61,356 nt of DNA from Ignavibacteria bacterium (GTDB lineage: Bacteria > Bacteroidota > Ignavibacteria > Tepidaquicellales > Tepidaquicellaceae). A program made the translations under genes and the position numbers. Within the stretch, counting starts at the first letter, position 1. Every line of letters starts with the position of its first letter. Under the pieces are notes generated by a model. That model worked only from the letters and a program-made list of their open reading frames with translations, made no database searches and was not told the DNA's origin. Where the stretch lies: assembly GCA_026417495.1 (NCBI GenBank), contig JAOADD010000076.1, positions 1 to 61,356 of the forward strand, written 5' to 3'. Below are positions 33,766 through 61,356 of the stretch, one piece after another.

Positions 33766-33793
33766 TGAAAAAATTTTGAGTGATATTTTTAAA

Positions 33794-34861: not shown

Positions 34862-34864
34862 GAT

Positions 34865-35971: not shown

Positions 35972-35983
35972 TTATTTTTTTCA

Positions 35984-36451: not shown

Positions 36452-36460
36452 AAAATTAAA

Positions 36461-36466
36461 AAGGAG
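36461..36466 (+). promoter_or_regulatory. Strong Shine-Dalgarno site for the aminomutase gene
   Basis: AAGGAG lies 11 bp before the ATG at 36478. Most genes in this window have no such site, so this one stands out and suggests high or independent translation of the aminomutase. Confidence 0.7.
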
Positions 36467-36477
36467 TAATCCATTTT

Positions 36478-42575: not shown

Positions 42576-43513
42576 TTCAATATCACCATTCGCTTCGTTT
42601 CAGAATAATTATTCACTATTAAAGTGTAGAAATAAACTCCGCTTGATAAATTATAGGTATATGTGTTAAATCTGAATTGATAATGTCCTGCATCCTGAAA
42701 TTGATTTATTAATGTAATTGTTTCCTTGCCTAATATATCATATAAAATTAATTTTACCTCTCCTTTCTCTTTTAATTTATATTCAATTATTGTGGTAGGA
42801 TTAAAGGGATTTGGAAAGTTCTGCAATAATTCATATTTTTGAGGGATTGATTGAGAAATTTTGTATATACCTGTTGTTCTTACTCTGAAATTCCAGATAT
42901 CTGACCAAACACCAACACCTTTTATGTTATTCCCTCTTACTCTCCAATAATATTTTTGTCCTAATTGTAATATTCCCATTCTCAATTGTACGGGTGGTTG
43001 AGCTACTGTTGTATCAAAAACAATAGATGTGAATAATGAATCATTTGCAATTTGTAATTTGAACGAATCAACAGTCTTATTACTATCCCATATCATTATC
43101 GTGTTCTGGTTAATATTCTGCGAATTATTAGGAGGGTATAAAAGACTTGGTTTGGCGGGGAACCAAAGAAAGACTTTAAATCCTTGCGGTATGGAATCAA
43201 AATTTAGGAATGCATCTCCAAGAATAACAGTTTTATAACCAGTATCAGCTTTTGCATCAATATAAATATGTGCTAATATTACAGTATCATTAATCGCTCT
43301 TACACTATCAGCGAAAACTCCTCCTCCCCAAAAATATATCTCAAAATATGGTGAAAGAGTCCATTCTGTTCCGGTTCCATTTAATTGAAATGGATAATCA
43401 AAGCTTTGTGAACCAGTATCGGGGATACAATTTACAAGCTGACTTTGAGAAAATATTTTTCCACTTACTATTAATATTATTAATAATACATATTTAATAA
43501 CCTTCACTTGCAT
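42572..43513 (-). CDS. Secreted protein with T9SS type A sorting domain
   Basis: The signal peptide (MQVKVIKYVLLIILIVSGKIFSQ) is followed by beta-sandwich segments, including a fibronectin III-like segment near residues 125-210 (PPNNSQNINQNTIMIWD, FKLQIANDSLFTSI, QKYYWRVRGNNIKGVGVWSD). The C-terminal T9SS type A signal is clear: LLQNFPNPFNPTTIIEY, GKETITLIN, and the end SETKRMVILK. It begins inside the 3' end of the O-antigen ligase-TPR gene (20-nt overlap) and ends overlapping dnaG. A surface or secreted protein of unknown ligand. Confidence 0.86.
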   Translation of the reverse strand: MQVKVIKYVLLIILIVSGKIFSQSQLVNCIPDTGSQSFDYPFQLNGTGTEWTLSPYFEIYFWGGGVFADSVRAINDTVILAHIYIDAKADTGYKTVILGDAFLNFDSIPQGFKVFLWFPAKPSLLYPPNNSQNINQNTIMIWDSNKTVDSFKLQIANDSLFTSIVFDTTVAQPPVQLRMGILQLGQKYYWRVRGNNIKGVGVWSDIWNFRVRTTGIYKISQSIPQKYELLQNFPNPFNPTTIIEYKLKEKGEVKLILYDILGKETITLINQFQDAGHYQFRFNTYTYNLSSGVYFYTLIVNNYSETKRMVILK

Positions 43514-45335
43514 TTAAGTCATTTTTAATCTTTAGAAATGTGCTGTAGTTTTTTGCATTTTTATATCTTTCTCCTTTCTCTTTGGTTTCAATTTCATTTA
43601 TTAATTCTTTTGCATCATTGAATCTTTTATCATTCATATAAAGTACAAGTAAATTTATCTGTGGTTCATAATAATAAGGAAAATTTCTCTTTATTTCAAG
43701 CAATAGATTTTCAGACTTTTCTTTTTCCCCTATCATATATAGAGTGATAGCTTTATTACTAATTATTTGCGGAAAATATGGCATTATTTTCAATGCTTTG
43801 TCAAAAACATTTAATGCATTTTTGTAATTTTTAATTTCATAATATCCTACTCCTAGATAATAATTTAAAGGAATTTTATTTGGATCAATAGGATATATGT
43901 AACTGTTTATTTTTTCAATGAATTGTATTGTTTCAGAATATTTATTTTCTGCTTTTTTATTAAGCGATTGTATGTACTCATTTTCACTCTTTACCCTTAA
44001 AAAGTTAAATATCAATATAAATATTGATAATAGAATTATAACTAGTGTATAAAAGTTTGATAAGGATTTCTTTTCAGAATTATTCTGGAAAGAAACGATA
44101 ATACAAACAATAATTATAAACATTAAATTGATATTCTCCTTTGGGAATGCAATGGAGGATATAAAAACGAAGCTCATTAGACTTAAGCAGAAAGGTAAAT
44201 ATTTAATTTCGTATTTTGAGTTAGTAAATAGTCTTTTTAAAGGGAACAAAATGATAATACTGAAGGCAAGAAACCCCAATATACCAGTCTCAGCTAAATA
44301 TTCCAAAAAATCATTATGGGCATAAATTGCTGAATTATTATAGGTGGTAATATCTCCAAATTCATCTCCATGGTATTTACCAAAATATCCAGCCCAGACT
44401 CCCGAACCAATTCCAAAAATGGGATTATCAATAAACATTTTGAGGGAAGCATCGTAGTAAAATATTCTCGAAATATTTGGGGGATAATTAATATCAGAAA
44501 AAGAAGTTATTATTTTGGAAATAGATTTCCTTTCTGGATCTGAATGCGGAAATTCAATTTTCGAAAGGAAAAAAGAGATGATTACTATTAAAAATAGAAA
44601 GATTGTTTTGATTAAATATTTACTTTCATATCTGAATGGTCTATAAATAAAAGATAGTATTAATAATATGATAAGGTGTATAAGAATTATTAAATACGCA
44701 GTCCTTGACCGTAATGAAAATAAATAAAAAACTAAAATAAAGATTGAAATTAGGGCTGCTATAACTTCTATTTTTTTATTCGATTCGAGAAAAAGAAATA
44801 AAAGGAAAGGTAATGTTACTAGTAGATAATCACTAATAAAGTTTCTCGTATTCATTAGTGATCCAGGTCTTGTTGATGCAATTTCACCTATAAGATTGTA
44901 TCCTGTTAATTGTAAAATTCCTATAGCACTTAAAATGATAGAAGGAATAATTATTATTCTTGGGATTTTTGTGAATATATTTTCTCCTAATTCCTGAAAT
45001 AAAAAGTATGTAATAAATGCAATATTTAATAAATTTAACCAATAAAATATCTGCCTCAAAATCAATTCTTCTTTGCCATTAATAATATTACTTATTATGA
45101 TTATTAGAATTAATATCGCAACAATAGAAATCCAAAGTCCGAAATATTTATTTATGTTTTGAAACTTGTATCCAATTAATATCAATAAAAGAAAAGAAAA
45201 TAGGCATAAAAAAGCAAAAAGTAATCTATGAAATTCGAAAATGTCTATAGTAATTTTCGAATATATCAAAGGAATAGATACAAATACACTGAATATTAAA
45301 TAAACTAATATAATTTTAATGTTTCTTTTTTCCAT
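43494..45335 (-). CDS. O-antigen ligase-like membrane protein with C-terminal TPR
   Basis: The first ~400 residues are multi-pass membrane helices with an O-antigen ligase loop (IYAHNDFLEYLAETGILGFL, with the ligase His in HND) and IFGIGSGVWAGYFG, as in the Wzy_C domain. The last ~150 residues hold TPR-type helix pairs: YYEIKNYKNALNVFDKALKI, KAITLYMIGEKEKSENLL and LYMNDKRFNDAKELINE. Such ligase-TPR fusions occur in Bacteroidota and in PglL/PilO-like enzymes. It may transfer or polymerise glycans in the periplasm. Divergent from the flippase at 45392 (56 bp). Confidence 0.85.
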   Translation of the reverse strand: MEKRNIKIILVYLIFSVFVSIPLIYSKITIDIFEFHRLLFAFLCLFSFLLLILIGYKFQNINKYFGLWISIVAILILIIIISNIINGKEELILRQIFYWLNLLNIAFITYFLFQELGENIFTKIPRIIIIPSIILSAIGILQLTGYNLIGEIASTRPGSLMNTRNFISDYLLVTLPFLLFLFLESNKKIEVIAALISIFILVFYLFSLRSRTAYLIILIHLIILLILSFIYRPFRYESKYLIKTIFLFLIVIISFFLSKIEFPHSDPERKSISKIITSFSDINYPPNISRIFYYDASLKMFIDNPIFGIGSGVWAGYFGKYHGDEFGDITTYNNSAIYAHNDFLEYLAETGILGFLAFSIIILFPLKRLFTNSKYEIKYLPFCLSLMSFVFISSIAFPKENINLMFIIIVCIIVSFQNNSEKKSLSNFYTLVIILLSIFILIFNFLRVKSENEYIQSLNKKAENKYSETIQFIEKINSYIYPIDPNKIPLNYYLGVGYYEIKNYKNALNVFDKALKIMPYFPQIISNKAITLYMIGEKEKSENLLLEIKRNFPYYYEPQINLLVLYMNDKRFNDAKELINEIETKEKGERYKNAKNYSTFLKIKNDLNASEGY

Positions 45336-45391: not shown

Positions 45392-46657
45392 ATGATTATA
45401 TCAATCATTAAAAAGAATTTTGTTAGATTCAGAGATACAAGATATATATTTTATTCGGTAATAACAGATAAGATTTTCTTTTTTGTTTATTTTTTGATAT
45501 TAGCTAGACTATTTGATAAGTCGATATATGGTGAAATTGTTACTTTATTTACACTTTGTAATGTTATTGCTTTTTTTGTAAACTTGGGGATACCAGTTTA
45601 TGCTCAAAGAATAGTTGCTATAAAAAAACTGCAAAGTAGCACAGAAGTAAGCGTATCGTTTTTCCTAACTACCTTTTTAATGATTATTTATTTTCCTTTA
45701 ATTTTAATTCTTGCAATTTTTTTATATCCTACAATTGAATTGAGTTTAGCTATACTAATTGGAATTATTGTATATTTGTACAACTATGTTTCTTTAATTA
45801 GTGCTATTTATAATGGTTTAGAGGAGTATAAAAAGTATTTCTATGTTATTTTCTCAGTGAAATTAATAATGTTTTTGCTTTTAATCTTTACCTTTATTTT
45901 AAAAGTTTATAATGTCCAAGTTTTTATAATTTTACTTTTGATTACTGTTTTAATTCAATTTTTGGTTCTATTTTTTTTATTATATTCTAAAAGAATAAAA
46001 GTTTCTATTAAAGAAATTAAATTTAAACTTATAAAAGAAATTTTAATTATTTTATTACCTCTTTATCTAGCTACTGTTTTTAATTTTATGTATGATAAAG
46101 TTGATGTATTGATAATATCTAAATTAATTGATTTTAAGGAAGTTGCTAATTATTCAATTGCGTATGGGATTTACAAGTCATCTGCAATTTTCTTCATGCC
46201 TTTTTTAGTTAGTGGGTATACAAAAATATCCTATCTAAGCAGGAGAGATACTGCGATTAATTTATTTATAAAAAAATATTTAATCTTAGTATTAATAGTA
46301 GGTATTCTTGTTTTAATGTTTGTTTTTATTTTTAGTAAGCAAATTGTTATCCTTTTGTATAGTAGTAAATTCGAGGGTTCCATTAATGTTCTTCGAATAC
46401 TTTCGGTGGCTGTTGTTTTTATGGGTTTGAATAACTTACTCGGAAATGTTTTGAATGGCCTTGGAAAATTTAAAGAAAATAGAAATGTTACCTTTATATG
46501 CCTAATATCAAATATTCTGTTAAATTTGATTTTAATACCTTTATTAGGAATTATTGCTGCTGCTGTTGTTACAGTATTCACAGAGTTTTTGGTATTAGTA
46601 GGTGATACATTTTACTTAAGAAAATTCATTTTTATTAAGAAACTAAAAAGTAATTGA
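45392..46657 (+). CDS. Polysaccharide flippase (Wzx-like)
   Basis: About 12 membrane helices. The ILARLFDKSIYGEIVTLFTL segment after the first helix and KVDVLIISKLIDFKEVANYSIAY in the middle are typical of oligosaccharide translocases of the MATE superfamily. Shorter than the flippase at 26307 (421 vs 500 aa) and clearly not a recent copy. First gene of the plus-strand glycan operon that ends at the WecG/CpsF gene, so it presumably exports that glycan. Confidence 0.87.
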   Translation: MIISIIKKNFVRFRDTRYIFYSVITDKIFFFVYFLILARLFDKSIYGEIVTLFTLCNVIAFFVNLGIPVYAQRIVAIKKLQSSTEVSVSFFLTTFLMIIYFPLILILAIFLYPTIELSLAILIGIIVYLYNYVSLISAIYNGLEEYKKYFYVIFSVKLIMFLLLIFTFILKVYNVQVFIILLLITVLIQFLVLFFLLYSKRIKVSIKEIKFKLIKEILIILLPLYLATVFNFMYDKVDVLIISKLIDFKEVANYSIAYGIYKSSAIFFMPFLVSGYTKISYLSRRDTAINLFIKKYLILVLIVGILVLMFVFIFSKQIVILLYSSKFEGSINVLRILSVAVVFMGLNNLLGNVLNGLGKFKENRNVTFICLISNILLNLILIPLLGIIAAAVVTVFTEFLVLVGDTFYLRKFIFIKKLKSN

Positions 46658-46666
46658 TTATTTTAA

Positions 46667-47620
46667 ATGTCTAAGGAGCCTTTGATTTCTGTTTTAATGC
46701 CAGTTGCAAATTCAAAGGAATTTATTTCCTATGCAATCCAAAGTATTCTTAATCAGTCTTATGAAAGTTTTGAATTATTAATAGGGGATTCTTCTGATGA
46801 TGAAACATCTGAAAAGATAGGCTCTTTTAGGGATAATCGTATTAAACATTTCTTTTTACGAGAATACAAAACAGCAGAAGCTTTAAATTTTCTTTTAGAG
46901 AAATCAAGTGGCGAATTTATTGCAAGGATGGATGCTGATGACCTGTCAGATATTAAGCGATTTGAAGTTCAATTGAATTTTTTATCTCAAAATAAGGATT
47001 TTGATATTGTAGGGACAAATTTTTTTTACATTTCGGAAAATGGTAAAATTATGTTTTTAAAAAGAATGCCAGAACATCATAAGGATATTGAATTCATTAT
47101 GCCCATATATGCATCTGTACTTCATCCAACAATTATGTGTAGGAAAGTTATTTTTGATAAAATTGGAAATTATAATTCAAATTATTTAATTGAAGACATT
47201 GAAATGTTTCTAAGAGCGCTTGAAAAAGGCTTTAAATTTTACAATTTTCAAATTCCATTGTATTACTATAGAGTTCGAAAAAAAAGTAAAGAAACAGTTC
47301 AGAAACAGCAAAAAGAACAATATTATTTAGGTTATCAATATATTTCTAGAAATGATAACGAAAAGTCAGGAGCGAACTATTATTTTAGATTAGGTTTGTT
47401 GGAATATTATAATGGGGAGATGAGCAGAGCAAGGCATTATTTTTTTAAATATATAAAAAATAGAAAAAAATTATCACTCGCTATTATTAGATATATACCC
47501 TTGACATTATTCGGTAGAAATTTAGTAAGTTTTTTAAGAAAAAAACGTGTTTTATTAAGATTGAATTTTTTTATTAACAAGATTTTTAAATATGATCTAA
47601 GGAAAATAAATCATCCTTAA
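46667..47620 (+). CDS. Glycosyltransferase family 2
   Basis: GT-A enzyme: PLISVLMPVANSKEFISYAI, LLIGDSSDDETS, then the DxD-like MDADDLSDIKRFEVQL, the Wcb/EpsE-type signature of chain-elongating GT2 enzymes. IEDIEMFLRALEKGFKFYN contributes the catalytic ED. The C-terminal ~100 residues are helical and basic, perhaps membrane-proximal. Its TAA overlaps the ATG of the next gene (TAATG). Confidence 0.9.
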   Translation: MSKEPLISVLMPVANSKEFISYAIQSILNQSYESFELLIGDSSDDETSEKIGSFRDNRIKHFFLREYKTAEALNFLLEKSSGEFIARMDADDLSDIKRFEVQLNFLSQNKDFDIVGTNFFYISENGKIMFLKRMPEHHKDIEFIMPIYASVLHPTIMCRKVIFDKIGNYNSNYLIEDIEMFLRALEKGFKFYNFQIPLYYYRVRKKSKETVQKQQKEQYYLGYQYISRNDNEKSGANYYFRLGLLEYYNGEMSRARHYFFKYIKNRKKLSLAIIRYIPLTLFGRNLVSFLRKKRVLLRLNFFINKIFKYDLRKINHP

Positions 47621-48756
47621 TGGTAGAGTTTATGAAATTAGTTTGTAGATTTCTTAAGTTGGTAAATTCTTATTTTAATCTTTTTATTCTTAAATTGATT
47701 TTTAACAATAAAACCTTTAATAATAGAACAAATGTATTATTTGTAAATACTGGTTTTCTTGGAGATGTGATTATAACAAGTTTGATAATGGAAAATGAAA
47801 ACTTATTTGATGATTCAATAGGTGTTTTTTATTTATTCAGAAATGATTTTAAAAAGTTATTCGATGGATATAAAGGTAAAGGTAAATTAATATTTTTCAA
47901 TCTAAAGAGGTATAGGTTTGATTTTTTTTACAAAATATACATTCTAAAGAGAATTAGGAAACTATCTTTGCGATATTCGATAAACTTAACAACAGCAAGA
48001 GGTTTAACGAACGATAGTTTAACCGTATTTTCAGGCGCTAGTGAAAAATATTTCATAAATAATAAACATTTTCACCCAACCGATAACTTCAATAGTAAAA
48101 TTTTAAATTTATATTCAGGTGGAAAATTTACAGAAATAGTTAATGAATATGAAAAACATAAAAGTATAATTGTTTGGTTAAAAAAGAATAATAATCAGAA
48201 TATTAGATTCTTTAATTTAGTTGCTTTTAACACAGAAATTTTATTAAACACTTACTACCTTGAACTTCTACGATATAATAGATCTATAATAGTAGCACCA
48301 CTTTCTAGAGAAGGTAATAAAAATTGGGATCTTGAAAATTATTCACATTTAATTAAAGAATTATCAAAAGAAAATTTAATATTTTTAATTGGTTCATCAA
48401 ATCAAAGATTACAGCTTGAAAAGATTAAACAAGGTGAACAAAAAATTATTAATACTGCTGGTGATTTTAAGCTAAATGAAATTCCTTCACTTTTAAAAAA
48501 AGCAAGCTTATTTATCGGGAATGATTCTGGAATAACACATCTTGCAATTAAGTTAAATATACCTACTATTGCAATAATCGGTGGTGGAGGTTTTGGAAGA
48601 TTTTTTCCAATTCCTTTTGATAATTTAAATGTAAAATATTTATTTCACTATATGGATTGTTTTAATTGCGACTGGTTTTGCAAATTTAAGGAGAAGTATT
48701 GTTTATCAAGAGTATCTGTTGAGGATGTTTTGAATGCAATTAAAATTTATATATAA
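47620..48756 (+). CDS. Glycosyltransferase family 9 (heptosyltransferase-like)
   Basis: GT-B, GT9 type. NVLFVNTGFLGDVIITSLIM starts the acceptor half. The C-terminal half has IIVAPLSREGNKNWDLENYSHL, LIFLIGSSNQ, FIGNDSGITHLAIKLNIPTIAI (ADP-sugar binding) and the Cys cluster DCFNCDWFCKFKEKYC-L-S-RVSVEDVLNAI seen in many GT9 proteins. The start overlaps the previous stop by one base; a second Met (MKLVC) four codons on is also possible. Confidence 0.87.
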   Translation: MVEFMKLVCRFLKLVNSYFNLFILKLIFNNKTFNNRTNVLFVNTGFLGDVIITSLIMENENLFDDSIGVFYLFRNDFKKLFDGYKGKGKLIFFNLKRYRFDFFYKIYILKRIRKLSLRYSINLTTARGLTNDSLTVFSGASEKYFINNKHFHPTDNFNSKILNLYSGGKFTEIVNEYEKHKSIIVWLKKNNNQNIRFFNLVAFNTEILLNTYYLELLRYNRSIIVAPLSREGNKNWDLENYSHLIKELSKENLIFLIGSSNQRLQLEKIKQGEQKIINTAGDFKLNEIPSLLKKASLFIGNDSGITHLAIKLNIPTIAIIGGGGFGRFFPIPFDNLNVKYLFHYMDCFNCDWFCKFKEKYCLSRVSVEDVLNAIKIYI

Positions 48757-48789: not shown

Positions 48790-50403
48790 ATGAATAAAAT
48801 TAGTTTGATTTTAAATTTAGAAATATGGGAAAAAATCTCTAAGCATTTCAACAAAAATGAAACTTTTTTCTCGATAATAATAATCGTTATTGCCTCCACT
48901 TTATATAATTTATATTTTATCATTCACCTACCAATTTTCTTATATGACGATTTTACTATTTTTAGAATTGTAAAAGATGTGTTAAGCGCTGGAAACTATC
49001 TTTTACCTGATGAGAAGTTTTTTTTATTTTGGAGACCTGTAACATTTGTATTTTTTATATTAGAGTATCTAATCTTTGGGAATAATCCACTTCTGATGAA
49101 AATATTCTCCTTGCTTTTGCAAAACATTTTTTTAGTTTTGGTATACATTTTTTTAAGGAAAATTTTCACATACTTAAAAATTAAAGAATTCAACTTAGTT
49201 ATTGTTTTAATTGTTTTATGTATTAATCTTCACCCTGTAACGAATTATTATATAATATGGATAAGTCAAGTTAATACCCTTATAATGCTTCTTTTCTTAG
49301 TTCTTTCATTAATTGCTCTAATAAAATACATTGATTCTTCAAATATATTTTACTCAGTTTTTTCTATTATTTCTTATACGCTATCTATACTAAGTAAGCA
49401 ACATTCATCATCATTCCCTTTATTTCTTTTTGTATTTTTATTCTTTTTTAGTAATTATTTAAGTGATAATCAAAAGAAAAAAATAAAGCAAATATTTTTT
49501 TACACTTTTATTATTACATTATTATATTACATAATATTTTATTCATCATTCTTGAAGGATGAAAAAATTTATTTTTTAGAATATTTATATAAAAAACCGT
49601 TTGTAATAGCGAGTTCCGTGTTGTATTATTTTTTCCCTTATAAATTTACAAATATTTATGCTTTTTTTGTTCATAATTTCCTGATTGCAATAATAATAGG
49701 TGTGTTTCTACTTTTAATAGTTTTACTTCTTTTAAATAAGGTAAAACTTAAAGCTTTGCTTTTTATAATGGTATCTTTAGTTGTAAGTTTCTTTCCTCAG
49801 ATTATGATGGATAATGAATTGAGAAATTTAAATATTCAAATTTTGCTATTACTTATTCTCACAAATTTGTATTTAGTTTTTAGATTTAAAAAGATTGTAA
49901 TTACTTTTTTATTTCTTTGTTTAATCATTTATCCTATTGCAACTTTAAATAATTTTGAAATTCAAAAAGTAAAAATAGATTTTTATAATAATTCAGCTGT
50001 TCAGTTAGCGAAATTATATGAAAATGGATTTCGAGATTTTTCAGTAATTTTATCATTTGAAGATTTTATGATAGGAGACCACTTATATTATTTAATAAAT
50101 AAAGACTTTGGAAAATACAACATTGATAATTTAGCAGTAAATATTAAACTTAGAGAAGATAAATTATTAGAATTAAATCCAGCAACACTATTGATGTCAG
50201 TTACAAGAAAAGCAGATACATTGGATTTTAATTCTGTAAATGAAGCTGCTTTTTTAACATATTCTGAAAAAGAATCAATAGTTAATGAAAATCAAATTCA
50301 TAAAACAAGATATGTAATGTCCCTTAAATGCTTAATTCCAGATAGAATTAAGGATAAAAAATTAATATATTATGACGGAATAAAATGGAATGTATTGAAA
50401 TGA
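48790..50403 (+). CDS. Multi-pass membrane protein, GT-C/GT39-like
   Basis: About 11 hydrophobic helices. After the first helix there is an acidic DD motif (FLYDDFTIFRIVKDVLSAG), the position of the catalytic aspartates in GT-C transferases (Dol-P-mannosyl or ArnT-like), then FFLFWRPVTFVFFILEY. A soluble ~100-residue C-terminal part follows. It may transfer a sugar from a lipid carrier to the glycan or a lipid. Family assignment is by topology and the DD motif only. Confidence 0.7.
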   Translation: MNKISLILNLEIWEKISKHFNKNETFFSIIIIVIASTLYNLYFIIHLPIFLYDDFTIFRIVKDVLSAGNYLLPDEKFFLFWRPVTFVFFILEYLIFGNNPLLMKIFSLLLQNIFLVLVYIFLRKIFTYLKIKEFNLVIVLIVLCINLHPVTNYYIIWISQVNTLIMLLFLVLSLIALIKYIDSSNIFYSVFSIISYTLSILSKQHSSSFPLFLFVFLFFFSNYLSDNQKKKIKQIFFYTFIITLLYYIIFYSSFLKDEKIYFLEYLYKKPFVIASSVLYYFFPYKFTNIYAFFVHNFLIAIIIGVFLLLIVLLLLNKVKLKALLFIMVSLVVSFFPQIMMDNELRNLNIQILLLLILTNLYLVFRFKKIVITFLFLCLIIYPIATLNNFEIQKVKIDFYNNSAVQLAKLYENGFRDFSVILSFEDFMIGDHLYYLINKDFGKYNIDNLAVNIKLREDKLLELNPATLLMSVTRKADTLDFNSVNEAAFLTYSEKESIVNENQIHKTRYVMSLKCLIPDRIKDKKLIYYDGIKWNVLK

Positions 50404-50426: not shown

Positions 50427-51989
50427 ATGCAGATAAAAAATAAAGTTTTATCATCAACCCCAACTAATATTATTCTTTTATTAATTTTCTTGTCTCTCAT
50501 TACACTTGTTTTTACTTTAGACATAACATACTTAATAAATTTTGCTCATGATGATTCTTTTTATTATTTAAAAACAGCTTTGAATTTCTCTCAAAGTGGA
50601 AGTTCAACTTTCGATGGTATTAATAAAACAAACGGTTATCATCCCTTGTATTTTTGGATAATATCATCATACTTTTTTGTTTTAAATTTATTTCTTGATA
50701 CGAACCCTGAATTACTGTTTCGTTTTGTATGTCTTTTACATTTATTATTAATTCTGCTTATATCATTAATTGTAAATAAAATTATCCAAAAACATTTTGA
50801 TGATTCTCCTAAAGCAAATTTTTTTTCTAAACTAATAATATTTTCGTTATTAATTGGTTTGATATTAATTAGAGATGTTGGAACTGAAGCACACATAACT
50901 GTTATTTTAGTATTGTTATTTTACTATTGGTTATTAAAAGAAGAAGCCTATAATTTAAAGTACAAATTATATCTTGGGGTTATACTTTTTTTCCTATTCT
51001 TATCAAGAATTGATTTGGTGGTTAGTTTTTTAATCCCTTTACTCTTTTACTTGGTGTCAAAAGAAGGTTTTAAGGGGATGCTGAAAAAATATATTTTAAT
51101 CTTATTATTTGTTTGCCTTTCAATCATTGTGAATGCGTTATATAATTTTATTGTTGCTGATTCTATTTTTTCTGTTTCGAGTATGATTGCAAATACATTT
51201 CCTAAAATAGTGTTTAAAGACAATATAGTCCCATTATTTACAAGGTTAGGTGATAGTGTTACCCTTATGAAATTTCTTATGCTTATATTTCTTATAATTA
51301 TTTCAATTTATTTAATTATTAAATATAATGAAAAATATAAAAGTAAAAGTTTTCTGTTAGCAATTTTATTGTCTTTAGGGTGTTTACTATTTTGTTTTCA
51401 ACATTTGTTTTTCAATAAATATGGTTTAAGAAGTTGGTATATGGCTGTTCCTTCAATTTGTATGTTACTTATATTGATTAATATTTTACCACAACTTAAA
51501 AATAAATCTGTCCTAAAATATACTTCAATGATAGTTTTGATTATAATAATTTCTTATTTGTTAGCAATTAGAGTATTCAATAATAAATTTAGATTTGTAT
51601 ATCAATACTCAAAAGAAATTGAAAAATTAACAACTGAAAGTGATGTAATTTTTCAGATTGATTTTTCAGGAATAGTCAGTTTTTTTTCTTCGAGAAAAAT
51701 TATTAATGGTGATGGTTTGATAAATAGTTTAGAATACTACCAATCTTTAAAGAAAAATGATATAAGAGAATTTTTGAAAAAAACTAATGTAAATTACTAC
51801 TCATTTTTTGTATGGAAGAGTTTCATGGAAGATGAGAGATATATATATGATTATTCCTATAAAGATTTTAGCAATGGATTATTTTTCAAAATTGAAAAAA
51901 GAAATATTATATTTTATTATCCTTATCATTATGAGTTCTTATTAGTAAATAATACTGGTTATTGGTATCTTGCAAAATTTTCTTTGTAA
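50427..51989 (+). CDS. Multi-pass membrane glycosyltransferase, GT39/ArnT-like
   Basis: GT-C topology: one helix, then the DD motif in FAHDDSFYYLKTALNFSQSG with TNGYHPLYFWIISSYFF, the characteristic first loop of GT39/PMT-like enzymes. Further ~10 helices follow, and the last ~120 residues are soluble. It should use an undecaprenyl-linked sugar donor in the periplasm. The gene starts at 50427 (MQIKNK), 23 bp after the previous gene, and ends overlapping the next (TAATG). Confidence 0.8.
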   Translation: MQIKNKVLSSTPTNIILLLIFLSLITLVFTLDITYLINFAHDDSFYYLKTALNFSQSGSSTFDGINKTNGYHPLYFWIISSYFFVLNLFLDTNPELLFRFVCLLHLLLILLISLIVNKIIQKHFDDSPKANFFSKLIIFSLLIGLILIRDVGTEAHITVILVLLFYYWLLKEEAYNLKYKLYLGVILFFLFLSRIDLVVSFLIPLLFYLVSKEGFKGMLKKYILILLFVCLSIIVNALYNFIVADSIFSVSSMIANTFPKIVFKDNIVPLFTRLGDSVTLMKFLMLIFLIIISIYLIIKYNEKYKSKSFLLAILLSLGCLLFCFQHLFFNKYGLRSWYMAVPSICMLLILINILPQLKNKSVLKYTSMIVLIIIISYLLAIRVFNNKFRFVYQYSKEIEKLTTESDVIFQIDFSGIVSFFSSRKIINGDGLINSLEYYQSLKKNDIREFLKKTNVNYYSFFVWKSFMEDERYIYDYSYKDFSNGLFFKIEKRNIIFYYPYHYEFLLVNNTGYWYLAKFSL

Positions 51990-52918
51990 TGACGCAGATA
52001 AAAAATAAAAAAATACTAATTATTTCACTGAATGCAATAGGGGATTCTTATTTGAGTAGTTCATTATTAAATCTTGAGAATATATCTGCCATAAATAATT
52101 CATACCATATAGTTACATTAATAGATGCAAAATTTATAATTGATGATTTTGATTATGAGAAAAGGTTCTATATAAAAAGAAAGAATTTTATATCAATTTT
52201 AAGTACTCTTATTAAGATAATATTGAATAAGTATGATTTTGCTTTTAGTTTCTTTGGAGGTAGGCTAAATACTTTATTATTTATTTTATGTAGGGCGAAA
52301 TTTAAATCAGGGTACATAAATTTTAGAAAAATTGAAGACTGGAGTAGAAGAAAAGTAAAACTGTTTTTAAAGGGAATAAAGCGAGAAGAGGATATAATTT
52401 GGGAACCATATATGAACTTTATGGACAGAATAAAATTAGCATTGAAACCATTCGGTATCGATGTGAAAAATATTAGGAAACCAATATTTCAAAATTTAAA
52501 TTATGAAGATGATGGAAAGACAATTATTATAAATTATGATTCAAAAATTCCTGGGAAAAGAATAGCTGTTGATACAGTTTTGAAATTGATTGTTTACCTT
52601 TCTGATACAAACAAATATCATATTAGTTTAATAGATGTAAATGATAAAGTAAAAACTGATAAGGTTAAACTATTTAAAAAGTTGAGTTTAGATGAAATTT
52701 TAAGTCTACTAAGTCATTGTACATTGTTTGTTACAACAGATTCATTTCTATTACATTTAGCAGATGCACATAATGTCAAAACTTTAGGTGTTTTTTTTGA
52801 GACTAATCCTGAATCAGTTTTCTGTGATTTTAAGGATAAATATTGGATAAAGTTAAAGCAAGATTCAATAAATAATGCAGAACTTATTTTTAACAAAATA
52901 AAAGATATTTTATTTTAA
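51989..52918 (+). CDS. Degenerate GT9-like glycosyltransferase
   Basis: The ORF opens at 51962, but ATG 51989 overlaps the previous stop (TAATG) and gives MTQIKNKKILIISLNAIGDSYLSSSLL, a GT9-type start (G-D-x-L/Y-L-S). The C-terminal half keeps LLSHCTLFVTTDSFLLHLADAHNVKTLGVFFETNP, which parallels the GT9 donor-site strand-helix, but the middle is short and the usual Cys cluster is lost. Possibly a low-activity or specialised transferase. The first 16 bases of its 5' coding region (gcagataaaaaataaa) are identical to those of the upstream gene. Confidence 0.72.
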   Translation: MTQIKNKKILIISLNAIGDSYLSSSLLNLENISAINNSYHIVTLIDAKFIIDDFDYEKRFYIKRKNFISILSTLIKIILNKYDFAFSFFGGRLNTLLFILCRAKFKSGYINFRKIEDWSRRKVKLFLKGIKREEDIIWEPYMNFMDRIKLALKPFGIDVKNIRKPIFQNLNYEDDGKTIIINYDSKIPGKRIAVDTVLKLIVYLSDTNKYHISLIDVNDKVKTDKVKLFKKLSLDEILSLLSHCTLFVTTDSFLLHLADAHNVKTLGVFFETNPESVFCDFKDKYWIKLKQDSINNAELIFNKIKDILF

Positions 52919-52920
52919 AA

Positions 52921-53664
52921 GTGATAATTTGTAACTCAAAAATAAACCTTGCAAGTTTTAATGAAATACTCGATATAATTTTTAATTGTATTGATTATAG
53001 AACAAAATCCACTTTTACATATCTTAATTCATATATATGTGTATATAAAAGTCGTAATAAGAATCTTGACAAAATTTTAGAAGAGTTTGATTACATATAT
53101 CCAGATGGCTACGGAATCTATTTAGCATCAAAAATTTTATATGGTAAGGATGGGATTAAAGAATACATTACAGGAACAGATTTGTATTTTAAATTATTTT
53201 CGGAACTTAATATTAGAAATAAAAAAATATTCATTTACGGTGGTGATATATTATCTGAAAATCTTATGCGGAAAAAACTGAAAGAAGTATATCCCAATAT
53301 AATTTTAACAGGATATTATAATAGAAATCAAAAATGCAATGATGAATTGATTGAGGAAATGAATAATTCACTTTCAGATATTCTATTTGTTGGTTTGGGA
53401 ACACCTAATCAAGAGGAATTTATTATAAGGAATCGTGATAGAATAGACATTCCTGTAATGATTTGTGTTGGTAGTGGTATAGATTTTCTTTCGGGATATT
53501 TAAAAAGAGCACCTTTGTTTATGAGGAAGCTTCGTTTAGAATGGTTGTTTAGAATTTTTATTGAACCTAAAAGATTATTCTTTAGATATTTTTTCGGAAT
53601 CCCGCTTTTTATATTTAAAATTATCATTCAAAAGTTTAAATTATTCCTAAAAATTCAAAGATGA
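52921..53664 (+). CDS. WecG/TagA/CpsF-family glycosyltransferase
   Basis: Family GT26: DYIYPDGYGIYLASKILYG (the DGxGxxxA signature), YITGTDLYFKLFSEL, KIFIYGGDILSENLMRKKL, LFVGLGTPNQEEFI and GSGIDFLSGYLKRAPLFMRKL, then LEWLFRIFIEPKRLFFRY at the membrane-binding end. These enzymes add the second sugar to a polyprenyl-PP-sugar. The start is GTG 52921, 2 bp after the previous stop. Its TGA overlaps the ATG of the PorU-like gene (ATGA), tying glycan synthesis to the secretion gene in one transcript. Confidence 0.93.
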   Translation: MIICNSKINLASFNEILDIIFNCIDYRTKSTFTYLNSYICVYKSRNKNLDKILEEFDYIYPDGYGIYLASKILYGKDGIKEYITGTDLYFKLFSELNIRNKKIFIYGGDILSENLMRKKLKEVYPNIILTGYYNRNQKCNDELIEEMNNSLSDILFVGLGTPNQEEFIIRNRDRIDIPVMICVGSGIDFLSGYLKRAPLFMRKLRLEWLFRIFIEPKRLFFRYFFGIPLFIFKIIIQKFKLFLKIQR

Positions 53665-56600
53665 AGAGAATATTAATTGCATCTCTTCTAAATTTATTAT
53701 TATTCGGTTTTGTATTTGCCCAGAATTATAACTGGATAGTACCCAATAAAGACTACTTGAAAATGTATGTGATTTCTGATGGGATTTATAGAATAAATAA
53801 ATCTGATTTTTTAAATGCTGGTATTAATCCTAATAATATTGACCCACGAACTGTAAAAGTTTTATATAAAGGTTTACAAATCCCAATTTATTTTTTTGGT
53901 GAAGAAGATGGTGTTTTTAACGATAGTGATTATTTTGATTTTTATGGTCAAAGAAATTATGGTGGCATATCCAATGTTTACAAAGATTCTTCTGGCTTTT
54001 TGCTTGTACATTACGTTGTTGATGAATATTACAATTTATATTCTGATACCAATATATATTGGATTGATTGGGGAGGAAGTTTCGGACTTCGATTTAATGA
54101 TTTTTCTTATTCAGTAGATATCAATTATCCGAATGATTATTTCTATCAGGAATTACATTTTGAAAAGGATTTGATTTATAGTTTAGGTGAAAAAAGAAAC
54201 CCATCTGACTTTAGGAATTTTAATAACGAGAGAATTTCTGGAGAAGGATGGTACTGGCGTGATTTTACCAGAGGAAATTTTTTATCTGATACATTTCGGA
54301 CTCCCTATTTAAGCCAGACAACAAGCACAAGTTATATTAAATTGTTTGCTTATCCGAATTCTTATACTGATACAATATTCAATGAGCACAGACTTATTTT
54401 AAGAATAAATGCTAATATCGTTGATACTCTCAAGAGAGATAATTACAACAGATTTGACACATTAATTTCATTTTCTACTTCATTACTTTCTTCATCATCT
54501 GTAAATCAGATAATTTTTACCTATACTAATCCTTCTACTTATATAGGAAGATTATATTTTGATATGTTTCATGTTTATTACCCAAGGAAAATGGTTATAG
54601 AGGGTAATTATGTATCTATAAATTTGACAGGAAATGATACAACAACTAAAAAGTTCAGAATAGTTGGTGGCAACAGTAATTTACCAATTTCTATATACGA
54701 TGTCAAAAATAATTTTAGGATAACTAATTATTTCTTTAGTAGTGATACAATAATATTTTCTGGTAAAAGTAATGGAAAATTTGAAATTAATAATCAATAC
54801 ATTACAAATAAACCTTTACGCATAAAAATAAAAAGAGTCCCCAATTTTATTTCATCTCAAAATGGTGCGGATTATTTAATAATATATAATAAGCTATTTG
54901 AATCTCAAGCAGAACAATTAAGGATGCACCGCTCTTTATTCAATCAGTTCAGAACTTATAAAGCTGAAATAGAAGATGTTTATGATGTGTTTAATTTTGG
55001 GATTGAGAATCCCGTGGCAATTAGAAATTTTGTAAAATATGTTTATACAAATTGGCAACTTCCCAAGTTAAGATTTTTGTGCCTTTTCGGACGAGGTTCG
55101 CTTGACCCAAAACATAATGTTGTTAATAATTCATATTATAAAAATTATATTCCCGTTTATGGAAATCCATTGACTGATGGTTATTTTGTTAATTTTAATG
55201 ATGGTTCAGTTACATACTATCATCAGGTAGCTGTTGGAAGATTACCAGTTTATACAATTCAGGAAGCACAAGATATTGTTAATAAAATTATTGATTATGA
55301 CAATACATCTTTAGCAAAATGGATTAAGAACTTTATTTTTATAACTGGTGGACAGAATATAAGTGAACAGATACAGTTTGCAAATCAATCAAATGCATTC
55401 ATAAATTCTTATATAACTCCCTGTCCAATTTCTGGAGTAAATACTAAAATTTATAGAAATGATTCCGCTGGATATATAACTTATAATTATCAGGATTCTA
55501 TAAAAAATTCCATAAATTCTGGTGGATTAATTGTGAATTATATTGGTCATGCTGGTTCCAATGTTTGGGATAATGGGTTATCTGATCCTTCTGAATTAAA
55601 TAATGCTGGAAAGTTGCCATATATATTTAGTATGACTTGTTTTACGGGGAAAAATGCAGAAACAGAATTTAGAAGTTTTGGAGAAAAGTTTATTACTGTA
55701 CCTTCTAAAGGTGCAATTGGATTTTTAGGATCAACAGGGTGGAGTTTTTCGGGTTCAGGTAATAACTTAAATGGCTATTTATTTGAAGGGTTTAGTATTG
55801 ATTCATTAAGAACTTTAGGAGAATTATTAAAATACTCAACAATAAGAATGAGTGTGGATTCAATGAGTTTTCCATCGAGGAATACACTTAATTGCTATAT
55901 ATTATTAGGGGATCCCGCATCAGAACTTAAATTAACAAAGTATCCAGAATTTGATATACAGACTAGTGATTTTTGGAGTTCCAATTTGTATCCTTCTTTA
56001 AAAGAATTAATAAGTTTTAAAATTTTCCCTAAAAATATAGGTACTTGTGCTGATTCATGTAAAATAAAATTTCAGATCTTAGATAACAACAAAGAAGTTT
56101 ATAGAAAAGATACAGTAATAAGAAATTTTTATTATTTAGATACATTGTCTTATAGGTATACATTCGACTCAGCAGGAAATTACTCCATAAAAGTTGTTGT
56201 TGATCCTGATAATTGGTATCCTAAGGATTCAAAAACAAATAATACTATTATTATACCAATTTATTTAAAAAATATTTCTTTTGTACCATTAAAACCAGTA
56301 GATAATCAAATAATATATACCGATTCCTTGGATATTGTTGGATTAAATCCAAATATTAAATTTGGCACAAATCAGGTTAAGGTAATTTTAGCTGTTGATA
56401 CTTCTAAATATTTCTCATCACCAATGAATCGTATCTTTTTCAAAAATATTACTTCAGGTGTAATTACAAAATTTAAAATTGATATTCCAATTAAAGATAC
56501 AAATGTTATTTATTATTGGCGTTTAAATTGTGTTATTAATAATACTGATAGTTCTGGCTGGTCAGAGATAAGAAGATTTATTTGGAATACTAATAAGATT

Positions 56601-58499
56601 TTTGATAATAGGAAAACCTCAGACACAATTATTAAAATATCTAAATATAAGAAGGAACAGTATGAAAATTTTGAGTTAAATAATATCACTTTCCGTAATG
56701 GTAAATTTGAATTAGACCAGTTCACGGGTAACCTTGTTGCTCAATCTTGGGGAGGAAACTTTTTTGATGCTACATACTTTACTGTAAATGAATTACAAAT
56801 ATTTTTAATAGACACAATATTTTGGGGTGGTTTGAATATAGCAAAGGTTAGAAAACTTGATGGAAAACTAACAGAGTTAAAACATTTTACTTACTCATCA
56901 AGTTTATCGAATGATTCATTACTAAATTATCTTAATAATTTTGACACTAATTATGTTTTGATGGTTGTGAAAGCAATTCCAACTTCCGAGACTAAAAATA
57001 TGAATGCAGCCGTTAGAAACAAGTTCAAACAATTTGGTAGTTATTATGTTGATTCTGTAAACCTTACTCAGTTTTCAAGATGGAGTTTTATATCTTATCG
57101 AGGTCTGCCACAACCTTTAGTTGCTGAAGGTTATATGATTGCTGGGTGGACTCCTGTAAATGTTAGTATGAACCCACAATTTTATTTTACTTGGGGACAG
57201 CTATTTAATACTTTTGGACCTGCAAATGAATGGAAGAACTTTAATTTCATTTATAATATTTTTCCATCAACTTATATAAAGTATGATTTAATAGGGGTTA
57301 AAAATGATGGGAGTGAGATTTTTTTAAAACAAAATCAAAACATTACTTGGTTAGTCAACATTGATAGTATTAACACTTTAGAATACCCGAATCTAAAACT
57401 AAATCTTAAACTTGAAATAGATACCAATCATCCTGAAGTAAATGTATCCCCGAATTTTTCTAAATTAAATTTATTATACACACCCGCAGCTGAAATTATT
57501 CCTGATTATAATTCCTTTACCAAAAGTGACTCAATTGTTCAGGAAGGTGATTCAGTTTCTTTCTCTTTATATCTTACCAATGTTGGTTATTCTCCAATAA
57601 ATACTATTATTAATCAGTGGTCGGCAACATCACCTCATGGTTTAGTAAAATTAAAAGAAGACACAATTTTTTACAATTTATTAGTTGATAGTAGTTTATT
57701 TATCAATACAAGATTACCTACAAAAGGATTAAGGAAACCTACATTATTACAGGATACTATTTATGTATTATTTGAGACAAAATTAATTGGAAAAAATGAA
57801 TTTTATAGTTATAACAACAATATAGTTACCTATATTTTGGTAAGAGGTGATACTGTTAAACCCGATGTTGAAGTAACTTTCGATGGTGTTAAAGTATCTA
57901 ATGGTGATTTTATCCAAAGAAAGCCAAGAATTGTTTTAAAGTTTTTTGACAATAGTAAAATTTTTATAAATGACACATCAAATATAAAAATAAAACTTGA
58001 CTATCTGTACATCCCTTACTATATAAACGGTGTTAAGAATCCTGACCTGGATATTCAGTTTATGAGAGATAAATATCTGCAAGCAATTGTAAATTATACC
58101 CCTACTCTTTCAGATGGAGAACACTTTTTCGAATTCATTACTACTGATGCTACGGGAAATAGGGGAGATACAATTAAATATTTTCTTAATGTTAATCCAG
58201 AATTTAGAATTACGGACTTAACTAATTATCCGAACCCAATGAGAAATTACACGAGTTTTATATTCAACCTATCAGGAGAATACCCACCTACAGAGTGTAA
58301 AATAAAAATTTATAGTGTCTCTGGTAGATTAATTAAGACAATAAATTACTTTGCCAATATCGGATTCAACAAAGTTGATTGGGATGGTAGAGATGAGGAT
58401 GGTGACTATATTGCCAATGGTGTATATTTTTATAAATTAATAGTTTCTGGAATGAGTAAGTTAGAAACTAAAATAGAGAAACTTGTTGTTTTGAAATAA
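53661..58499 (+). CDS. porU: PorU-like C25-family protein (T9SS sortase type)
   Basis: A very large exported protein (1612 aa) with signal peptide MKRILIASLLNLLLFGFVFA. The gingipain-like C25 peptidase domain spans about 400-765. The catalytic dyad is visible: H630 in VNYIGHAGSNVW and C660 in IFSMTCFTGKNAE. The upstream region is beta-rich with GQRNYGG and YFDFYGQ motifs. After 780 there are Ig/CARDB-like modules (FKIFPKNIGTCADSCKIKFQ). The C-terminus (from ~1525) resembles a FlgD/T9SS type module: YPNPMRNYTSFIF, SGRLIKTIN and the end IEKLVVLK. PorU cuts off the cargo sorting domain and can join cargo to A-LPS. A secreted C25 peptidase is an alternative. The symbol is tentative. Confidence 0.8.
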   Translation: MKRILIASLLNLLLFGFVFAQNYNWIVPNKDYLKMYVISDGIYRINKSDFLNAGINPNNIDPRTVKVLYKGLQIPIYFFGEEDGVFNDSDYFDFYGQRNYGGISNVYKDSSGFLLVHYVVDEYYNLYSDTNIYWIDWGGSFGLRFNDFSYSVDINYPNDYFYQELHFEKDLIYSLGEKRNPSDFRNFNNERISGEGWYWRDFTRGNFLSDTFRTPYLSQTTSTSYIKLFAYPNSYTDTIFNEHRLILRINANIVDTLKRDNYNRFDTLISFSTSLLSSSSVNQIIFTYTNPSTYIGRLYFDMFHVYYPRKMVIEGNYVSINLTGNDTTTKKFRIVGGNSNLPISIYDVKNNFRITNYFFSSDTIIFSGKSNGKFEINNQYITNKPLRIKIKRVPNFISSQNGADYLIIYNKLFESQAEQLRMHRSLFNQFRTYKAEIEDVYDVFNFGIENPVAIRNFVKYVYTNWQLPKLRFLCLFGRGSLDPKHNVVNNSYYKNYIPVYGNPLTDGYFVNFNDGSVTYYHQVAVGRLPVYTIQEAQDIVNKIIDYDNTSLAKWIKNFIFITGGQNISEQIQFANQSNAFINSYITPCPISGVNTKIYRNDSAGYITYNYQDSIKNSINSGGLIVNYIGHAGSNVWDNGLSDPSELNNAGKLPYIFSMTCFTGKNAETEFRSFGEKFITVPSKGAIGFLGSTGWSFSGSGNNLNGYLFEGFSIDSLRTLGELLKYSTIRMSVDSMSFPSRNTLNCYILLGDPASELKLTKYPEFDIQTSDFWSSNLYPSLKELISFKIFPKNIGTCADSCKIKFQILDNNKEVYRKDTVIRNFYYLDTLSYRYTFDSAGNYSIKVVVDPDNWYPKDSKTNNTIIIPIYLKNISFVPLKPVDNQIIYTDSLDIVGLNPNIKFGTNQVKVILAVDTSKYFSSPMNRIFFKNITSGVITKFKIDIPIKDTNVIYYWRLNCVINNTDSSGWSEIRRFIWNTNKIFDNRKTSDTIIKISKYKKEQYENFELNNITFRNGKFELDQFTGNLVAQSWGGNFFDATYFTVNELQIFLIDTIFWGGLNIAKVRKLDGKLTELKHFTYSSSLSNDSLLNYLNNFDTNYVLMVVKAIPTSETKNMNAAVRNKFKQFGSYYVDSVNLTQFSRWSFISYRGLPQPLVAEGYMIAGWTPVNVSMNPQFYFTWGQLFNTFGPANEWKNFNFIYNIFPSTYIKYDLIGVKNDGSEIFLKQNQNITWLVNIDSINTLEYPNLKLNLKLEIDTNHPEVNVSPNFSKLNLLYTPAAEIIPDYNSFTKSDSIVQEGDSVSFSLYLTNVGYSPINTIINQWSATSPHGLVKLKEDTIFYNLLVDSSLFINTRLPTKGLRKPTLLQDTIYVLFETKLIGKNEFYSYNNNIVTYILVRGDTVKPDVEVTFDGVKVSNGDFIQRKPRIVLKFFDNSKIFINDTSNIKIKLDYLYIPYYINGVKNPDLDIQFMRDKYLQAIVNYTPTLSDGEHFFEFITTDATGNRGDTIKYFLNVNPEFRITDLTNYPNPMRNYTSFIFNLSGEYPPTECKIKIYSVSGRLIKTINYFANIGFNKVDWDGRDEDGDYIANGVYFYKLIVSGMSKLETKIEKLVVLK

Positions 58500-58533
58500 A
58501 ATTTTATTTATTATTGTATAATGATAAGAAAAT

Positions 58534-61356
58534 ATGAATAAGTACATATATACGAGTTTAATAATATTTTTTCTCACTATAATTGGATATTCTCAAAATT
58601 ATAATTGGATAACCCCCAATACTCCATATCTCAAAATGTATATTGTTCAAGATGGTATGTACAGGATCGAGAAGACAGACTTTACAAACGCAGGAATAAA
58701 CACTTCATCAATAGATCCTCGAACGATAAAAGTTTATTACAAAGGTAATCAGATTCCTATATATTTTTATGGTGAAGATGATGGAGTATTTAATGACACA
58801 GATTATTTTGACTTTTATGGACAAAGAAATTATGGGGGATTAACAAATACTTATAATGTATATAATCAAATTGCTTATGTAACAGATGAGTATTATAACC
58901 TTTATTCTGATACAAGTTGTTATTGGGTGGGATGGGGTGGAAGTTATGGGCTCAGATATATAAATTATACATACAGTGTTACATCTCAATATCCTCTCAA
59001 TTATTTTAAAGAAAAATTGCACTTTGAAGTTGATCTAGAATATTCATTAGGAATTTCTACAGGAAGTGGAGATTATAGAAACTTTATGAATGATAAATTT
59101 GAAGGAGAAGGTTGGTATTGGAAACAAATGTTGTACAATAATACTCATACTCAGGTTTTTCTTCCAATTAATTTACAAGTGACTTCTGACCAATTTGAGT
59201 TTAAAATTTTTGCGTATCCTATTAATTATAGCTCTTCTATTCCGTTTGAACATCGCATAATGGTGAGGTTGAATAATAATTTGATTGATACAATTAAATC
59301 TGAGGATTTAAACAGAATTGATACAATAAGATATTTCCCTGCTACTTTCTTCAATGTTGGAACGAATAATACTTTAACTATTAAATATACACCCCCTTCT
59401 AACTTTTCAAGTGGAAAGATATACCTTGATATGTTTGAAATTACTTACCCGAGAAAGTTTCAGTTTGATAGTAATAAGTTATCATTTAAAAATTTAACTA
59501 ACGATTCAACCTCAAAATTATTCAGAATTAGCGGTTTCAATCCTGCAAATCCTGTTTTTATTTATGATTATAAAAATGGATATAGGATTTTAAATTATTC
59601 TTATAATTCTGATACATTGAAATTCACCGGCAAAGGTAATGGTGGTTTTGAAGTTTATAATAAACTAATAACCCAAAAACCGTTACGAATTAAACAAAAA
59701 CAAGTACCAAATTTAGTTTCTACTTCTAATGGTGCAGATTATCTAATTGTTTATAATAAACTATTCGAATCTCAAGCAGAGCAATTAAGACAATATAGGG
59801 CATCTCATAATAACTTTCGTGCATTTAAAGCAGAAATAGAAGATATTTATGACATATTCAATTTTGGAATTGAAGACCCAATTGCAGTAAAGAGGTTTGT
59901 TAAGTATGTTTATCAATATTGGCAAGCACCTGCGGTTAAGTTCTTATGCTTATTTGGTAGAGGATCTGATGATCCAAAGAGAATAAACTCATCAGCTCAG
60001 TTTTTTAGAAATCTTGTACCAGTATATGGTATGCCAGTAACTGATGGTTATTTTGCAAATTTAAATGAAGGGTCGTTCACATATTATCATCATATTTCTA
60101 CGGGAAGAATTCCCGTTTATACAGTTCAGGAAGCAACAAATGTTGTTAATAAAATAATCCAATATGAAAGTTTTCAATTGGATGATTGGGTTAAGAAAGG
60201 AATTTTATTAACGGGGGGCTATACAAGAGATGACCAAGTGAATTGCATTATTCAATCAGAGTATTTAAACAATACATATATTTCTGTGCCCCCATTATCT
60301 TTGAAGACTGACAGAATTTATCTTACAGATTCAACTGGCTTTGTCTCATTTAATTATTATGACTCTGTAATTCATACTATAAATAGAAATAGTATATTCG
60401 TGAATTATATTGGACATGCTGGTAACGGATGGTGGGATTTTACTTTTGAAGACCCTGATGAATTAAATAACAGTAGATATCCTTTAATTTTCAGTATGAC
60501 TTGTTTTACAGGTAAGTTTTCTGAACCGAATAATAGAAGTTATGGAGAGAAATTTTTATATCTACCTAATAAAGGTGCAATTGGTTCTATTTCTACGACT
60601 GGTTGGAGTTTTTCTACCTCGGGGAATAATCTTAACGAGAAATGTTTGGATGTTTTTGCAAATGATTCTATTAGAAATTTAGGGGATATTCTGAGGTACG
60701 CAAATTTTAGTATGGCACCAGATTCCAATAGTTTTCCAATAAGAAATACTATCAATTGTTATAACTTAATAGGTGACCCTGCTACAACTTTAAAGATACC
60801 TAAATATCCAGAGTTTTCCATTTTACCATCTAATTATACTCTTACCCCTATTAATCCTAAAATTGGTGATAATTTAAACATTAAGTTCTATCCAAGGAAT
60901 TACGGGACATTTGCAGATTCTTGTAAGATTAGATTCCAAATTCTTAAAGATAATTATACACTTGTTAGCAATGATACAATAATAAGAAATTTTAAGTTTC
61001 TTGATTCCTTAAATAAATATTTTAGAATTGATTCTTTAGGAGCGTATACAATTAAGTTAATTTTGGACTGTGATAATTGGTACCAGAACGAAATGGAGAG
61101 CAACAACATTTTGAATATATATGTAAATCCCCAAAATTATTCCTTTTATCCCTTAAAACCGATAGATAACCAAATCATTTATAATGACACAGTAGAAGTG
61201 GTTGGCATAATCCCAAGTATTAAAACATTTTCTAATAATAAATACTTACTTCAAATAGATACAAATTTCTCATTTAACTCTCCATTGCTTACAAATTATA
61301 TAACGACATCTTCCCAAGGAACTACTACTAAATTCAAAGTAGCAATACCTTTACTT
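58534..61356 (+). CDS. Second PorU-like C25-family protein (3' truncated by window)
   Basis: ATG 58534 opens a frame that stays open to the right edge (941 codons). The signal peptide MNKYIYTSLIIFFLTIIGYS is followed by QNYNWITPNTPYLKMYI, near-identical to the start of the previous protein. The layout matches throughout: FDFYGQRNYGG, then catalytic H628 (IGHAGNGWWDF) and C657 (FSMTCFTGKFSEP), then the CARDB-like module (FYPRNYGTFADSCKIRFQ). It starts 34 bp after the first copy's stop and is clearly a tandem paralog, but the divergence in the loops is large. It could be a second sortase or a surface peptidase. Confidence 0.85.
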   Translation, partial: MNKYIYTSLIIFFLTIIGYSQNYNWITPNTPYLKMYIVQDGMYRIEKTDFTNAGINTSSIDPRTIKVYYKGNQIPIYFYGEDDGVFNDTDYFDFYGQRNYGGLTNTYNVYNQIAYVTDEYYNLYSDTSCYWVGWGGSYGLRYINYTYSVTSQYPLNYFKEKLHFEVDLEYSLGISTGSGDYRNFMNDKFEGEGWYWKQMLYNNTHTQVFLPINLQVTSDQFEFKIFAYPINYSSSIPFEHRIMVRLNNNLIDTIKSEDLNRIDTIRYFPATFFNVGTNNTLTIKYTPPSNFSSGKIYLDMFEITYPRKFQFDSNKLSFKNLTNDSTSKLFRISGFNPANPVFIYDYKNGYRILNYSYNSDTLKFTGKGNGGFEVYNKLITQKPLRIKQKQVPNLVSTSNGADYLIVYNKLFESQAEQLRQYRASHNNFRAFKAEIEDIYDIFNFGIEDPIAVKRFVKYVYQYWQAPAVKFLCLFGRGSDDPKRINSSAQFFRNLVPVYGMPVTDGYFANLNEGSFTYYHHISTGRIPVYTVQEATNVVNKIIQYESFQLDDWVKKGILLTGGYTRDDQVNCIIQSEYLNNTYISVPPLSLKTDRIYLTDSTGFVSFNYYDSVIHTINRNSIFVNYIGHAGNGWWDFTFEDPDELNNSRYPLIFSMTCFTGKFSEPNNRSYGEKFLYLPNKGAIGSISTTGWSFSTSGNNLNEKCLDVFANDSIRNLGDILRYANFSMAPDSNSFPIRNTINCYNLIGDPATTLKIPKYPEFSILPSNYTLTPINPKIGDNLNIKFYPRNYGTFADSCKIRFQILKDNYTLVSNDTIIRNFKFLDSLNKYFRIDSLGAYTIKLILDCDNWYQNEMESNNILNIYVNPQNYSFYPLKPIDNQIIYNDTVEVVGIIPSIKTFSNNKYLLQIDTNFSFNSPLLTNYITTSSQGTTTKFKVAIPLL

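Follow-up and report, generated by a model that had tools for sequence, protein, structure and literature searches.

The anchoring of cargo exported by the type IX secretion system (T9SS) is little known beyond a few oral pathogens. In Porphyromonas gingivalis, PorU removes the sorting domain of the cargo and is deduced to join the cargo to A-LPS via a linking sugar (PMC4560394, PMC7468200, PMC13086638). Arg722 of this protein has been proposed as the sortase arginine by Gorasia et al. (2015), and the residue is absent from the gingipain proteinases (PMC4560394). PorU (NF033707; PDB 6za2) is characterized by a signal peptide, an N-terminal region, a C25 domain with a His/Cys dyad, and a C-terminal sorting-type domain. 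A second family, PorU2 (NF052324), has already been named in NCBIfam as a "putative" T9SS sortase, so proteins of the kind described below are known as such. The word PorU2 was not found in the open literature searched, and no description of a glycan operon containing a paralogue of PorU was met there, mostly at the level of titles and abstracts. Wzx-type glycan operons with WecG/TagA/CpsF have in common a flippase, GT2, GT4 or GT9 glycosyltransferases, and WecG; unlike these, operons of the type discussed here have a C25 sortase-like gene, or two of them, at their end.

The window, by which we mean the whole stretch of 61,356 nucleotides analysed, is the entire contig C33 of a 2.19 Mb genome assembled in 76 contigs. 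The features of the operon and its surroundings are collected in Table 1. No second PF03808 gene besides its WecG gene was found in the genome assembly, and neither an initiating transferase nor a linking-sugar pathway was identified in the window operon. The divergent Wzy_C/TPR gene is kept beside the operon in several genera; at the place of the membrane protein with no family match, the genome of Ignavibacteria bacterium Ch128a has only a 94-residue ORF left. Two further features lie elsewhere in the window. A rhomboid protease (40113-40736) reaches 37.7 bits with the rhombosortase model, below its cut-off of 84. At 33776-37632, two genes for D-Ala-D-Ala-ligase-like ATP-grasp proteins stand in a row with genes for a GNAT acetyltransferase and a KamA-type 2,3-aminomutase; the sister genome G001 has a counterpart of the same ORF order and nearly equal lengths (L182:472-4338).

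Table 1. Features of the glycan operon and the C25 gene pair in the window; aa, residues of the protein named
Feature	Position	Strand	Remarks
Small T9SS type A sorting-domain protein	42572..43513	-	overlaps Wzy_C gene
O-antigen ligase/polymerase-like protein (Wzy_C) with TPR	43494..45335	-	divergent from operon
Wzx-like flippase (Polysacc_synt/MatE)	45392..46657	+	
GT2 glycosyltransferase	46667..47620	+	
GT9 glycosyltransferase	47620..48756	+	
Operon membrane protein	48790..50403	+	no family match
Membrane protein	50427..51989	+	weak PMT_2 match below cut-off
GT9 glycosyltransferase	51962..52918	+	start codon uncertain
WecG/TagA/CpsF glycosyltransferase	52921..53664	+	overlaps PorU2-A by ATGA
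PorU2-A	53661..58499	+	1612 aa, complete; signal peptide, N-terminal beta domains, C25, ILEI, C-terminal PorU-type sorting domain
PorU2-A C25 domain	aa 405-755		dyad H630/C660
PorU2-A ILEI domain	aa 1057-1148		
PorU2-B	58534..61356	+	first 941 codons, open at contig end
PorU2-B C25 domain	aa 403-753		dyad H628/C657

The initial annotation described the last two genes as adjacent paralogues sharing a signal peptide, a C25 domain and a catalytic dyad, the first overlapping the WecG/CpsF gene. The ORFs, the domain matches and the alignment agree with this description. Both proteins begin with a signal-peptide-like N-terminus, match Peptidase_C25 (PF01364; E values of 4.7e-68 for PorU2-A and 8.5e-67 for PorU2-B), and are 51-52% identical over their common part, and their dyads occupy the catalytic columns of the alignment, in register with the His/Cys pair in the P. 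gingivalis PorU structure (PDB 6za2). The ATG of PorU2-A overlaps the WecG stop codon by 4 bp (ATGA, 53661-53664; junction AAAGATGAAGAG), and 34 bp separate PorU2-A from PorU2-B on the same strand. A TIGR04183 match of 36.3 bits at C33:58227-58475 corresponds to the C-terminal sorting domain of PorU2-A. Since the window ends where the contig does, the second gene cannot be extended to the right; its missing part is supplied by the complete genome of Ch128a (CP054675.1), which contains the same operon and PorU2 pair. There the full-length PorU2-B orthologue measures 1631 residues (L009:14873-19768), possesses the C-terminal end absent from the window, and is followed by secG. AlphaFold2 models of PorU2-A residues 1-886 and 861-1612 reached mean pLDDT values of 38 and 33, the input alignments consisting of window and Ch128a sequences only (4 and 3 rows).

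The initial annotation called the two proteins PorU-like, and an identification as PorU did not survive the comparison with the rest of the genome. Three further C25 genes are present. One, on contig C35, encodes a canonical PorU (891 bits to NF033707) with PorV directly after it, an order seen in all relatives examined, and the other two (contigs C32 and C42) are cargo-like. A separate porU elsewhere in the genome had been named by the initial annotation itself as grounds for refutation. PorU2-A and PorU2-B score 358.8 and 291.6 bits to the PorU model (cut-off 420) and 357.3 and 369.5 bits to the PorU2 model (cut-off 450). The latter match is near full-length (profile positions 7-879 of 879), and all 109 genomes of the class (Ignavibacteria) that were sampled likewise score under the cut-off of NF052324. 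In a FastTree tree of 110 proteins, the 22 PorU sequences form one clade and all PorU2 sequences another, with support of 100 each. A C25-domain tree that includes the two cargo proteins recovers the same families (PorU 100/98; PorU2 92/92) and places the C32 and C42 proteins outside both on long branches. The claimed relation to PorU rather than to secreted C25 cargo is thus upheld, and a gingipain-like cargo identity for the pair, which the initial annotation had named as a possible refutation, is ruled out by this tree.

The two families also differ at individual residues. D717, D777, D778 and R921 (numbering of the genome's own PorU) are present in 22/22 canonical PorU and in 0/90 PorU2 rows; the dyad together with D506, R527, E675 and D751 (window numbering) is common to both. 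The R921 column is that of Arg722 of P. gingivalis PorU, and a window protein has Gly693 in place of this proposed sortase arginine. From the separate clade and the missing PorU-invariant residues we assign the pair to PorU2, a sister family of PorU. In organization the window proteins are about 270 residues longer than the genome's own PorU, carry an ILEI domain, and adjoin WecG, where canonical PorU adjoins PorV. They share their clade and approximate length with other PorU2 members; many of the Bacteroidia proteins that score above the cut-off lie behind a PorV-like gene, whereas the window pair is in tandem behind WecG in a glycan operon. That the pair is a duplicated PorU doing the work of PorU seems very improbable; the shared domain layout and the subthreshold PorU match speak for it, but the separate PorU-PorV locus, the separate clade and the absence of the PorU-invariant residues all speak against it. 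Elsewhere, in G021, canonical PorU is itself tandemly duplicated upstream of PorV (L163:4281-12818).

PorU2-A of the window is 78% identical to its counterpart in Ch128a, and the pair, its gene order and its WecG junction are kept in Ch128a and in many other genera; this conservation argues that neither the pair nor the junction is a matter of chance. Purifying selection acts on both copies: comparison of the window with Ch128a gives an ω of 0.086 for PorU2-A and 0.073 for PorU2-B (940 codons), with 0.042 for PorU, values that are rough because dS is near saturation. When the window family is analysed in eight genomes, the first copies form one clade and the second copies another (SH-aLRT 99 each), and the inner branching orders of the two match closely, which points to one old duplication with both halves retained. 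Tandem pairs of separate origin occur at poly-GT2 loci, in f13, G013 and G008, and in two Bacteroidia, so that tandem pairing arose several times. The members of the G008 pair fall in different PorU2 lineages in the copy-clade tree and together in the 110-protein tree. The dyad is kept in nearly all PorU2 copies, one exception being the second copy of G006, in which Lys replaces the catalytic His. Copies that are split or without the catalytic His, through either decay or assembly error, were seen in L042 (G006), L064 (G024) and L145 (G237). Among Bacteroidia, L128 (G143) and L124 (G216) show PorU2-PorV-PorU2 and PorV-PorU2-PorU2 arrangements.

A tie of sortase-like genes to the glycan operon had been claimed for the window and proved to be real and conserved. 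PorU2 loci were picked from match lists, irrespective of their neighbours, and the neighbourhoods were then fetched and scored with models built from the first (class) locus set. Of the 42 class PorU2 loci, 26 have WecG as a neighbour, in 24 cases directly upstream on the same strand, and 32 have at least three glycan genes in the 8 kb upstream. At the canonical PorU loci of the class both counts are 0/17. Both are 0/25 for Bacteroidia PorU2 loci, where sensitivity for glycosyltransferases is lower since the models were built from class sequences; a PorV-like gene lies directly upstream at 11 of these 25 loci. The glycan tie is therefore not universal, PorU2 of Bacteroidia going with a PorV-like gene rather than with glycan genes, and some PorU2 genes of the class also lack glycan neighbours. 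The 4-base WecG/PorU2 overlap recurs in families f1, f2 and f13.

The co-occurrence in relatives that the initial annotation had proposed to check was also found. Among the 109 class genomes (at least 95% complete), WecG and a strong PorU2 (at least 335 bits) are both present in 40, WecG only in 17, PorU2 only in 3, and neither in 49; the nominal p, 8e-13, exaggerates the significance, the genomes being related and not independent. No more than 1.5 kb separates WecG from PorU2 in 33 genomes, which represent eight families; in some families (f3, f4) the two are apart. The sister genome G001 seemed to have lost both WecG and PorU2, but its contig C102 breaks off some 460 bp inside the gene at the Wzx position. 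The completeness of G004 is 77%.

Glycan islands might simply collect surface genes, PorU2 having no functional tie to the glycan. Such passive linkage, to which the shared descent of gene order in related genomes and the class PorU2 genes without glycan neighbours lend some weight, is improbable in our estimation. WecG-PorU2 stays in place while the glycosyltransferases encoded between it and Wzx are exchanged and the downstream genes change; two unlike glycan loci are involved; and no such tie exists at canonical PorU. The second kind of locus is found in five genera. There an additional PorU2 pair lies behind glycan genes of a different make-up, among them one for a giant GT2 protein of several domains; in G018 this protein (2461 residues, four GT2 domains; L040:11244-18629) stands ahead of further GT2 genes and the PorU2 pair. 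We conclude that the link between PorU2 and the glycan operon is real and old. Its recurrence with sugar-polymer operons across many families of the class hints at a second, glycan-specific way to finish or anchor surface proteins.

The genome encodes SprA, PorU and PorV and gives 122 sorting-domain matches, and the C-terminus of PorU2 is a sorting domain of the PorU type. Our preferred, though tentative, reading of the sequence is that the pair are type IX-exported surface C25 enzymes serving the operon glycan, to which they probably attach part of the cargo. The operon would make a lipid-linked glycan, which the Wzx-like protein would flip and which would then be carried to the surface. The PorU2 proteins would travel via the type IX system, using their own sorting domain, to the surface, where they would act on proteins partnered with the operon glycan. 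Most likely they would cleave off the sorting domain and join the new C-terminus to an amine on the glycan, in parallel to PorU with A-LPS, and PorU2-A and PorU2-B may serve different substrates or steps. With respect to the glycan made by its own operon, we infer that PorU2 does work similar to that of PorU or, at the minimum, a proteolytic step. The initial annotation suggested the operon as the source of an anchor for T9SS cargo, with the cargo split between the two copies; this is compatible with the conserved linkage and the long separate retention of the copies.

Ligase activity does not follow from homology, since the proposed sortase arginine and other PorU-invariant residues are missing. 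For this reason the main rival is a surface protease with no ligase function, which would trim T9SS cargo or mature glycan-associated surface proteins and whose place at the operon would reflect a joint variation of glycan and substrate. The retention of the dyad with loss of the PorU-specific arginine and acidic residues fits such an enzyme, as does the like absence of the proposed arginine from gingipain proteinases (PMC4560394). We nevertheless regard it as rather unlikely: PorU2 is closer in sequence to PorU than to the gingipains and has kept the PorU-type C-terminal domain, and the coupling to a glycan operon is easier to explain with the glycan as a substrate. Annotation by similarity to PorU alone can mislead, as PorU2 lacks the arginine on which the sortase activity of PorU is proposed to depend.

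The window, Ch128a and G021 all have the couple of Wzy_C/TPR gene and small sorting-domain gene next to the operon; in G013 (L054) such a couple separates the two PorU2 genes. The small protein of the window is for this reason a candidate substrate. From this one might suppose that PorU2 processes or anchors only a few dedicated surface proteins encoded nearby, PorU attending to the rest, and that the glycan is a capsule or O-antigen to which these proteins bind non-covalently. Sorting-domain genes also follow PorU2 in loci of f2, f10, f12 and f20, but the neighbours vary among families and such genes are common in these genomes, and we consider a dedicated role of this type unlikely.

If PorU2 does join cargo to the operon glycan, a broader and more doubtful possibility is a second covalent route of type IX anchoring, in which a glycan-specific PorU2, often paired, joins a subset of the cargo to the glycan made with it, beside the PorU/A-LPS-type anchor. 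Different glycan loci carry PorU2 pairs of their own, and on this reading PorU2 and its acceptor glycan would travel as a module. Were the module a dedicated anchoring system, acceptor glycan and sorting enzyme could be inherited as a unit, gene neighbourhood would give a handle on acceptor glycans in uncultured bacteria, and the family would supply candidate transpeptidases from Gram-negative bacteria that differ in their acceptors. Exosortase is a membrane enzyme unrelated to PorU2 and belongs to another export route. The exosortase/PEP-CTERM system, in which the sorting enzyme also goes with an exopolysaccharide locus (PMC1569441), resembles PorU2 in organization only.

Most class PorU2 proteins tested contain an ILEI domain (PF15711) in their C-terminal half. 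It is absent from the genome's own PorU and from three PorV-linked PorU2 proteins of Bacteroidia. As a hallmark of glycan-linked PorU2 the domain serves only in part, for it is also found in some proteins with no WecG neighbour and is missing from others. In vertebrate POMGNT1 a related stem domain binds sugar. Finally, the gene after PorU-PorV in every class relative fetched encodes an inactivated M6-like metalloprotease (NF052323; L006:7822-10872 and class loci among L157-L176).
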